Of a stretch of DNA of 64,000 nt, positions 11,519 through 14,528 are shown in pieces. Within the stretch, counting starts at the first letter, position 1. Each line of letters begins with the position of its first letter. A program made the position numbers and the translations under genes. The stretch spans positions 1-64,000 of the forward strand of contig CANLSR010000005.1 of NCBI GenBank assembly GCA_947493945.1. The letters are read 5' to 3'. Source of the stretch: an uncultured bacterium. Its GTDB lineage: Bacteria; Bacteroidota; Rhodothermia; Rhodothermales; Rubricoccaceae. The notes under the pieces were generated by a model. That model was not told where the DNA came from. It did not search any database and saw only the letters and a list, made by a program, of their open reading frames with translations.

Positions 11519-11796
11519 GGGTCCAGGGCGGCGGTCTCTTGATAGATTAACGACTCTCCGGATGGGGAACGCCTGGACATCGCCCGGGCCATCCCTCGTT
11601 CGGGGCCGGAACCTACCCACCATTCCCACCGGAGGCGTCCGGGCCGCCCGCTGGCGGCGCCGGGCTTGGCGGCGGAGGGTTGGACGGGCGGGCGCCAGCG
11701 GGCGAGCCGATCCCTGACGGCCGCTCGCCGAGTTCGCCTCTCCCCTGCCAGGCCCGAGCCGTCGCGCGCGGCTGGAGCGCGTGCGACGGAGGCAGC

Positions 11797-12735
11797 TCAG
11801 CTTCCGAACCGCCGCAGCGTGGCCTCGACGGGGCGGCGGTAGGCGCGGCCGTGCGTGAGGTGGTTGATGAGGTGGAACAGGTTGTAGATCTCGCGGCGCT
11901 CGGCGTAGCCCGGCTCCAAGGACCACGCCTGTCGGTAGCCGTCGTAGAACGGCGCGTCGAAGCCGCCGAACAGCTCGGTCATCGCCAGATCGGCCTCGCG
12001 GTGGCCGACCGACACGGCAGGGTCGATCAGGGCAAACGCCACCGGCGACGGCGTGGCCAACCGCCCGCCAGAGGTCGCGAGCGCGTTGCCGGCCCACAGG
12101 TCGCCGTGGAGCAGCGACGGCGGCGGCGCGTGGGGCAGCCACTCGCCCAGCCGGGCCACCAGCCGGTCGAGCATCGGGTCCCACGCCGCGTCCCACGCGC
12201 CCCGCTGACTGGCGTCGACGCTGGCGCGGTGGCGGACCGTCTCGGCCTGGGCGCGCAGGCGGCGCTCGCCGAAGAACGTGGGCCACGAGGCGTCCCAGCC
12301 GTTCCGCTGAGGCTTGCTCCCGATCCAGTTGTCGGCCGCCCACCCGTAGCGGCCGTCGCCCGGCGCCGGCGCCCGGTGGAGCTCGGCGAGCGCCGCCCCG
12401 AACCGCCGCCAGTCGGGCGCCGACGGCCGGCCCGATTCGATCCAGGGCAGCACCAGCACGCCCGGCGCGTCGCCGTCCGGCGCCTGGCTCGCCAGCGGAG
12501 CCGGCACCACCACCTCCGGCCCGGCCGCCTCCGCCAGCGCGGCGAGCCCCTCGCCCTCGGCGGCATACGTCTGGCCCGCCGCGCCGGCCCCCCACTTGAC
12601 GAACACCGTCGCGGCGTCGGCCTCGACGCGCGCCGCGCGCGACACGTCGCCGCCGCCGACCGGCGTGACGGACCGGACGCGGCCGACGGCGCCCTCGACG
12701 GACTGGCGGACGGTCTCGGGGAGGCTACTGGTCAC
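11797..12735 (-). CDS. Fructosamine/ketosamine-3-kinase family protein
   Basis: VFVKWG...YAAEGEGLAAL, LLHGDLWAGNAL catalytic motif; 312 aa. Confidence 0.9.
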   Translation of the reverse strand: MTSSLPETVRQSVEGAVGRVRSVTPVGGGDVSRAARVEADAATVFVKWGAGAAGQTYAAEGEGLAALAEAAGPEVVVPAPLASQAPDGDAPGVLVLPWIESGRPSAPDWRRFGAALAELHRAPAPGDGRYGWAADNWIGSKPQRNGWDASWPTFFGERRLRAQAETVRHRASVDASQRGAWDAAWDPMLDRLVARLGEWLPHAPPPSLLHGDLWAGNALATSGGRLATPSPVAFALIDPAVSVGHREADLAMTELFGGFDAPFYDGYRQAWSLEPGYAERREIYNLFHLINHLTHGRAYRRPVEATLRRFGS

Positions 12736-13900
12736 GGATCGCGTCGAGAAGGCGGCGCGTAAAACCGCCCTGGGCGGCGGCCGCCTGGCGGACCAGGTCG
12801 AGCGAGGTTTGGCGGTGGCCCCGCCCCCACGTCGCCACTAGCGGCTGGCGGCGGCTGGGCAGCGCGTCGAGCGCGCCGGCCGCGCCGTTGGGCGGGGCCT
12901 CCAGCGCGTAGAGCGCCGCGTGGACGCCGGCCTCGGTCATGGCGCCCAGGCACATCGCGCACGGCTCCAGCGTCGTCGCCAGGATCAGGCCGTCCTCGGT
13001 TTCCCGCCCACCCATCAGCGCGTGGAGCGCGTCGGTCTCGGCGTGGCGCAGGCGGTCGCCGGTTGTGGCGGAGCGGTTGCGGCCTCGGGCCACGACCGTC
13101 CCGTCTGCACGGCCGATGACGGCGCCGATGGGCGCGTCGCCCGCGTCGAGGGCCTCGCGCGCCTGCTGCATCGCCTCGGCCATCAACGCGTCGGCAGCCT
13201 CGGCCGAGAACGTCGCGTCGCCGGGTTGGGCGGCGGCGAGCGCCGCGTCGAGGTCGTCCGCCAGCGCGGCGGTGGACGGGTACACGGCGCGCGCGCTGGC
13301 GCCCTCTAGGTCCTCCTCGGACCACACCCAAGTGGCAACGCCGACGAACGCCGTGCCGCCGCGCCGGGCGGCCCGGCCGTCGTAGACCGTGTCGCCAACG
13401 AGCACGCACGCCGCCGCCGGCACGCCGAAGTGCTCGGCCACGACGCGCACCAGGTCCGGGTCCGGCTTGCTGTCGTCCACGTCCGACGAGGTGGTGACAA
13501 AGTCCACTTGGTCGCGGAAGTCGACGCCGGCCGAGGCGAACAGCGCGTCGAGGTCGCCCTCGGACGACGACGTGGCCAGCGCCGTCTTCAGCCCCCGCTG
13601 GCGGGCGGCGTCGGCCAGCCGTTGGGCGCCGTCGAACACCCGGAACGCCTCGGCCTGGGCGATCTCGCGGAAGTGCCGGCCCAGGGCGTCACGGTAGTCG
13701 TCGCCGTGGTCGCGCTCGAACACCGGCCCGAACACGTCGGGCACCACGTGATCGGCGCCCTTGCCGATGGCCCGGTCGAAGCGGTCGCGGGCCACGGGGA
13801 CCCCGAAGTCCTCGGCGGCGCGGGCGAAGGCGCGGGCGTGCGCGCCGTTGGAGTCGACGAGGGTGCCGTCGAGGTCGAGCAGCAGGACGGAAGCAGACAT
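12725..13900 (-). CDS. HAD-superfamily phosphatase fused to CMP/dCMP/TadA-type zinc deaminase
   Basis: N-terminal DLDGTLVDSN, SKPDPD, VGDTVYDG HAD motifs; C-terminal APIGAVI, RHAETDAL, TTLEPCAMCLGAM deaminase motifs in one continuous ORF. Confidence 0.9.
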   Translation of the reverse strand: MSASVLLLDLDGTLVDSNGAHARAFARAAEDFGVPVARDRFDRAIGKGADHVVPDVFGPVFERDHGDDYRDALGRHFREIAQAEAFRVFDGAQRLADAARQRGLKTALATSSSEGDLDALFASAGVDFRDQVDFVTTSSDVDDSKPDPDLVRVVAEHFGVPAAACVLVGDTVYDGRAARRGGTAFVGVATWVWSEEDLEGASARAVYPSTAALADDLDAALAAAQPGDATFSAEAADALMAEAMQQAREALDAGDAPIGAVIGRADGTVVARGRNRSATTGDRLRHAETDALHALMGGRETEDGLILATTLEPCAMCLGAMTEAGVHAALYALEAPPNGAAGALDALPSRRQPLVATWGRGHRQTSLDLVRQAAAAQGGFTRRLLDAIRDQ

Positions 13901-13993
13901 GGGGCGGAGGGATGGAGCGGGCCTACGCGTGCGCCCCGCCGCGTGTCCGCCTCCGCCGGCCCTCAGGCCAAGCCCGACGACGCCGGCGCCCGG

Positions 13994-14485
13994 CTAGAGT
14001 CCGTGCGCCGCGCGCAGCCGCTCCAGGATCGCGTCGGTCGTCCGGTCCACCATGTCGTAGACGCGGTCGAAGCCGTCGGCCCCGCCGTAGTACGGGTCCG
14101 GCACCTGGTAGTCGCCCGGCTGGGGGTCGAACTCGCGGAACAGGCGGACGCGCGTGCCGTGGTCGCCTTCGGGATCGAGCGCCAGCGCGTCGTGGAGGTT
14201 GTCCTTGTCCATCACGAACACGTGGTCGTAGTGGCCGAGGTCGGCGGCGGTCAGTTGCCGAGCGCGGAGGGCGGAGAGGTCGGTGCCGCGCCGGGCCGCC
14301 GTCTCGGTCATGCGCCGGTCCGGCGGCGCCCCGACGTGCCAGCTCCCGGTGCCGGCCGAGTCGACCTCGACGTCGGCCGCCAGCCCGGCCGCCACCACCT
14401 TGTCCTGGAACAGCCCCTCGGCGACGGGACTGCGGCAGATGTTGCCCAGGCAAACGAACAGGACGCGGACGGGACGGTCAGACAT
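13994..14485 (-). CDS. Low-molecular-weight protein-tyrosine-phosphatase family protein
   Basis: VLFVCLGNICRSPVAEG active site and VPDPYYGG aspartate loop. Confidence 0.95.
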   Translation of the reverse strand: MSDRPVRVLFVCLGNICRSPVAEGLFQDKVVAAGLAADVEVDSAGTGSWHVGAPPDRRMTETAARRGTDLSALRARQLTAADLGHYDHVFVMDKDNLHDALALDPEGDHGTRVRLFREFDPQPGDYQVPDPYYGGADGFDRVYDMVDRTTDAILERLRAAHGL

Positions 14486-14504: not shown

Positions 14505-14528
14505 CCGCTGGCGGAGGCCGTCCGCCAG
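14505..14528. repeat. Inverted motif pair between divergent LMW-PTP and dxs genes
   Basis: ccgCTGGCGGA-GGCCG-TCCGCCAG. Confidence 0.8.

Follow-up and report, generated by a model that had tools for sequence, protein, structure and literature searches.

A rare HAD-deaminase fusion gene, probably a passenger, within a conserved LMW-PTP and FN3K gene pair

Three neighbouring genes in a 64,000-nucleotide stretch of DNA from an uncultured member of the Rubricoccaceae (hereafter the window; its genome is denoted G000, and the other G-numbered genomes are relatives from the same order) encode, in order, an LMW-PTP-like protein, a fusion of a HAD and a deaminase domain, and a kinase of the FN3K family. 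A sequence-only reading had taken them for a probable protein-deglycation module of PTP and FN3K to which a further enzyme of that pathway had been added. The locus raises the question of whether the fusion shares the pathway of its neighbours or is simply lodged between them.

Layout of the locus and its two flanking enzymes

The positions and strands originally assigned to the three genes proved correct when read from the sequence, and the family calls were borne out by Pfam, with all matches well above cut-off (Table 1). The kinase gene begins with a GTG at 12735 and the stop codon of the fusion ends at 12725, giving an overlap of the expected 11 bases, and the 93-base gap between the PTP and fusion genes (13901-13993) is free, as had been said, of any inverted repeat of the flanking kind. 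Overlap between genes running in the same direction is often a mark of functionally linked genes, and co-transcription of all three is plausible, judging from spacing and overlap.

Table 1. Features of the locus, numbered from the first base of the window
Feature	Position	Strand	Basis or remark
LMW-PTP-like gene	13994..14485	-	163 aa; Pfam PF01451 (LMWPc)
HAD half (subclass I cap) of fusion	13226..13900	-	Pfam PF00702, PF13419; alignment; Foldseek
TadA-like deaminase half of fusion	12725..13225	-	Pfam PF00383 2.1e-16; invariant columns; Foldseek
FN3K-family ketosamine 3-kinase	11797..12735	-	312 aa; GTG start; Pfam PF03881
11 bases shared by the end of the fusion gene and the beginning of FN3K	12725..12735	-	sequence; comparison with G003 and G002
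Inverted repeat downstream of FN3K	11649..11700		folding no better than shuffle level
Inverted repeat between PTP and divergent DXS gene	14508..14528		folding no better than shuffle level

Hairpins had also been proposed to bound the cluster. Inverted repeats are indeed present at both edges, but their folding energy is no better than that of shuffles (z about -0.5, in sequence of 72.5% GC) and no T-tracted terminator was found at the locus, so that they are weak evidence for operon borders, and the idea of hairpins as operon punctuation was rejected. Across the genome the hairpin consensus with fixed spacing is rarer than its backward control. As a separate observation, the short sequence CGCTGGCG/CGCCAGCG occurs in 125 copies in the window against about 16 expected under a first-order model, and in only 3 copies in 10 kb of sequence from the congener G003. 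Its counts match the expectation from the enclosed heptamers, meaning that a shorter core is what is enriched, and its fixed hairpin form shows no enrichment genome-wide.

The PTP gene encodes the sole LMW-PTP found on searching G000 itself. Its product matches Pfam LMWPc at 1.8e-41 (142.2 bits) and retains both catalytic motifs of the family, CxGNxCRS and DPYYG, in the forms CLGNICRSP and DPYYGG. The nearest solved structures are slr0328 (5o7b) and a 161-residue LMW-PTP chain (2cwd) which we take to be from Thermus thermophilus. The enzyme is predicted to be a sugar 5-/4-phosphatase of glycated amines.

The kinase matches Pfam Fructosamin_kin (PF03881) at 1.5e-64 (218.5 bits), with its catalytic loop HGDLWAGN and its IDPA motif intact. 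Its GTG start aligns exactly with the ATG of the congeners G002 and G003, indicating a protein of normal length. The best solved relative is a plant ribulosamine 3-kinase from Arabidopsis (6oid; E 2.4e-34). In human FN3K the use of fructosamine is reported to depend largely on F244 (PMC13223202); the corresponding residue here, its position read by eye from the alignment, is Ala, within GHREADLA, and this fits, though it does not prove, a specificity for ribulosamine rather than fructosamine. A second substitution affects the P-loop, whose Cys serves the plant and human enzymes as a redox switch (PMC11148063). This Cys is replaced by Asp in the genus of the window and in the sister genus of G004 and G007 (the window gene, L023-L026 and L029 in the motif table); the majority of the other families in the order have Cys at this position. 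In the genomes whose FN3K has the Asp P-loop, the adjacency of PTP and FN3K is often broken too.

PTP and FN3K as a conserved pair

An FN3K gene is present in 31 of the 40 genomes sampled around G000. At 22 of the 29 other loci read, FN3K is immediately preceded by an LMW-PTP gene in the same orientation, which overlaps it or is separated from it by no more than about 150 bases. The pair is found also in G426, G427 and G432, with gaps of up to about 260 bases, and in several relatives, as in G000, it is adjoined by DXS. The congeners G002 and G003 carry PTP and FN3K about 100 bases apart, and no fusion gene was found anywhere in either genome. Departures from the pattern occur, in two cases through unrelated genes: in G001 the two genes are 2.8 kb apart, with an opposite-strand sensor kinase in the interval; in G038 they are split by a sugar transferase; and G004, G007, G011, G025 and G036 showed no PTP up to 1.5 kb from FN3K. 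With one gene between PTP and FN3K, and hence no immediate adjacency, G000 is itself an interrupted case.

In families, catalytic motifs, order of the genes and conservation alike, the findings agree with the PTP-FN3K deglycation module proposed from the sequence alone. The pair is a known and widely conserved bacterial one, thought to repair sugar-damaged proteins. A module of bacterial LMW-PTP and FN3K was reportedly described by Gemayel et al. in 2007 (FEBS J 274:4360), and the ribulosamine/erythrulosamine 3-kinase and ribulosamine 5-phosphatase activities were reportedly the subject of that work and of that of Fortpied et al. in Biochem J in the same year. At the present locus the substrates would most likely be amines to which ribose 5-phosphate or erythrose 4-phosphate has become attached by glycation: the PTP would strip the sugar phosphate, and FN3K would then phosphorylate carbon 3, upon which the adduct would fall off. 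The two deglycation genes form a stable neighbourhood in the bacterial order studied, and this extends the genomic link already described.

Architecture and distribution of the fusion

The fusion (12725-13900) matches the Pfam HAD Hydrolase (2e-24) and dCMP_cyt_deam_1 (2.1e-16) families, and its predicted structure is confident (pLDDT 93.5, pTM 0.91). In the HAD half the subclass I motifs DxDGT, T/S, K and GDxxxD are intact as DLDGT, TSS, SKPDP and GDTVYD, and Foldseek matches it to 3s6j and AlnB (4ex6). The deaminase half has the deaminase fold and the HAE and PCxxC site of the PF00383 superfamily, its zinc and catalytic motifs being intact as HAE (H286, E288) and PCAMC (C314, C317).

The best folds for the deaminase half in Foldseek are ADAT2 and TadA, and its best sequence matches among solved structures are TadA and GuaD. 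These likenesses, along with the dispensability of the HAD half described below, would suit a TadA paralogue that edits tRNA or another RNA, the HAD half acting as scaffold or nucleotide phosphatase. However, the deaminase half carries TGDRLRHAE in place of the DPTAHAE of TadA, it falls with a few stand-alone deaminases of other phyla in a clade apart from both TadA and GuaD (97/98), and G000 has a separate TadA; we therefore regard RNA editing as unlikely. RibD and cytidine deaminase are also separately encoded in G000, making the fusion an extra enzyme, and its identification as the TadA, RibD or cytidine deaminase of the cell was rejected. Two stand-alone deaminases, L058 from a Gemmatimonadaceae genome and L059 from another bacterium, are closer than TadA to the fusion deaminase; neither has PTP or FN3K in its neighbourhood.

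A GuaD-like gene is present in G002, G003, G005, G006, G008 and G029 and missing in G000, where the fusion might accordingly have been supposed to substitute for a lost guanine deaminase. Yet G001, G004 and G007 possess neither a GuaD-like gene nor the fusion, and a GuaD-like gene is found also in six of the eight genomes with a fusion. This pattern of presence does not fit, and replacement of guanine deaminase, a distinctly improbable account of the gene, was rejected.

Full or degenerate, the fusion occurs in eight of 114 genomes of the order (G000, G013, G029, G406, G426, G427, G428 and G432) and was not found in any of the three congeners of G000. In a single scan of the contig collection with deaminase-half patterns, which fusions with a divergent deaminase could escape, full or degenerate fusions appeared only in Rhodothermaceae/Bacteroidetes records matching genomes of the order, and in collections of plasmids and viruses HAD and deaminase matched only separately, with no fusion. 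A literature search for a HAD-deaminase fusion found nothing. This is a rare two-domain architecture, restricted to the order in the scans made and apparently undescribed.

The two halves have fared differently in evolution. All eight fusions keep their deaminase site (HAE, PCxMC). Those of G000, G013, G029, G427 and G432 have an intact HAD site as well, whereas the other three have lost it, with PLDGV in G426 (L056), and DAFGP and a missing cap in G406 (L052) and G428 (L057). The G006 protein consists of the HAD half alone and is nested among the fusion HADs (100/98), a position that suggests loss of the deaminase, although the tree alone does not separate gain from loss. Such natural losses, of a working HAD with the deaminase kept and of the deaminase with the HAD kept, make the core activity of the fusion testable.

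Gene neighbourhoods bear directly on whether the three genes belong together. Lack of the triplet beyond this genome had been named in advance as grounds for refuting the proposed expansion, and the fusion was found between PTP and FN3K in none of the 113 other genomes of the order, G000 being the only case among 114. Elsewhere RlpA is the usual neighbour of the fusion, which it adjoins in G426, G427, G406 and G428; in G432 the distance to RlpA is about 5 kb, and AcuC is closer. In G029 (L172) a Fes-like esterase adjoins the fusion, which occupies the position that the HAD-only gene has in G006 (L005/L176). Ordinarily the pair occurs without the fusion. In the sister species G406 (L174) and G428 (L188) an LMW-PTP gene is one opposite-strand DUF3177 membrane-protein gene away from the dead-HAD fusion, which is the single, weak pointer to a link with PTP that is left; in G406, FN3K lies 40 kb from there, with no PTP beside it. 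Co-occurrence of fusion and FN3K was discounted as evidence, being uninformative when FN3K is already in 31 of 40 relatives.

If all three genes formed one deglycation operon, the HAD-deaminase would handle sugar-phosphate or glycated-nucleobase intermediates. Gene order, the common strand and the 11-base overlap of fusion and FN3K accord with this, as do the sugar-phosphate phosphatases among the HAD relatives and the nearby PTP in G406 and G428. Set against these are the occurrence of the triplet in a single genome of 114, the congeners with the pair and no fusion, the three fusions in which the HAD half is broken and the deaminase kept, and the unrelated character of the usual fusion neighbours, and we hold a single operon of this kind to be very improbable. 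The triplet having been found in one species only, and the fusion lying apart from the pair elsewhere, with RlpA or an esterase as its neighbour, no evidence places it in the repair pathway, and the proposed expansion of the module by a third enzyme is not supported. Also very improbable is that the fusion repairs glycated or damaged nucleotides alongside PTP and FN3K, coupling repair of nucleic-acid precursors to protein deglycation, in which event its position beside this PTP gene on two occasions (in G000 and in the genus of G406 and G428) would have been selected.

An interrupted pair and its known counterparts

The locus is, we consider, probably a deglycation pair interrupted, in the species of G000 alone, by a separate passenger gene whose HAD-deaminase product likely serves in nucleotide, nucleoside or base clean-up. 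The ancestral unit of the order would have been LMW-PTP followed by FN3K, with the fusion gene inserted later between them. Probably co-transcribed with its neighbours, the fusion would act as a separate enzyme, most likely dephosphorylating and deaminating a nucleotide, nucleoside or base for salvage or clean-up; deamination would be its core activity. The link of PTP with FN3K is now set apart from a third member that is attractive but lacks support, and two features are new here: the rare fusion with its pattern of domain loss, and the replacement by Asp of the FN3K P-loop Cys in the window's genus and a sister genus.

Comparison with known systems places each component. The bacterial LMW-PTP and FN3K pair and the G000 locus have the same families, PTP upstream and intact motifs, and differ in the third gene lying between them and in the Asp that replaces the P-loop Cys in G000. 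The ribulosamine-erythrulosamine 3-kinase of Arabidopsis (6oid) resembles the G000 kinase in its HGDLW loop and in the Ala at the position of human F244, whereas the G000 enzyme is without the redox-switch cysteine of the P-loop. TadA/ADAT2 and guanine deaminase (PF00383) have their fold and HAE/PCxxC site in common with the fusion, which is set apart by its HAD domain, by TGxxxxHAE for DPTAHAE and by its separate clade. Finally, HAD subclass I phosphatases (AlnB 4ex6, 3s6j and the beta-phosphoglucomutase family) share fold and catalytic motifs with the G000 fusion, but in the latter the domain is joined to a deaminase, and in three relatives it is degenerate.
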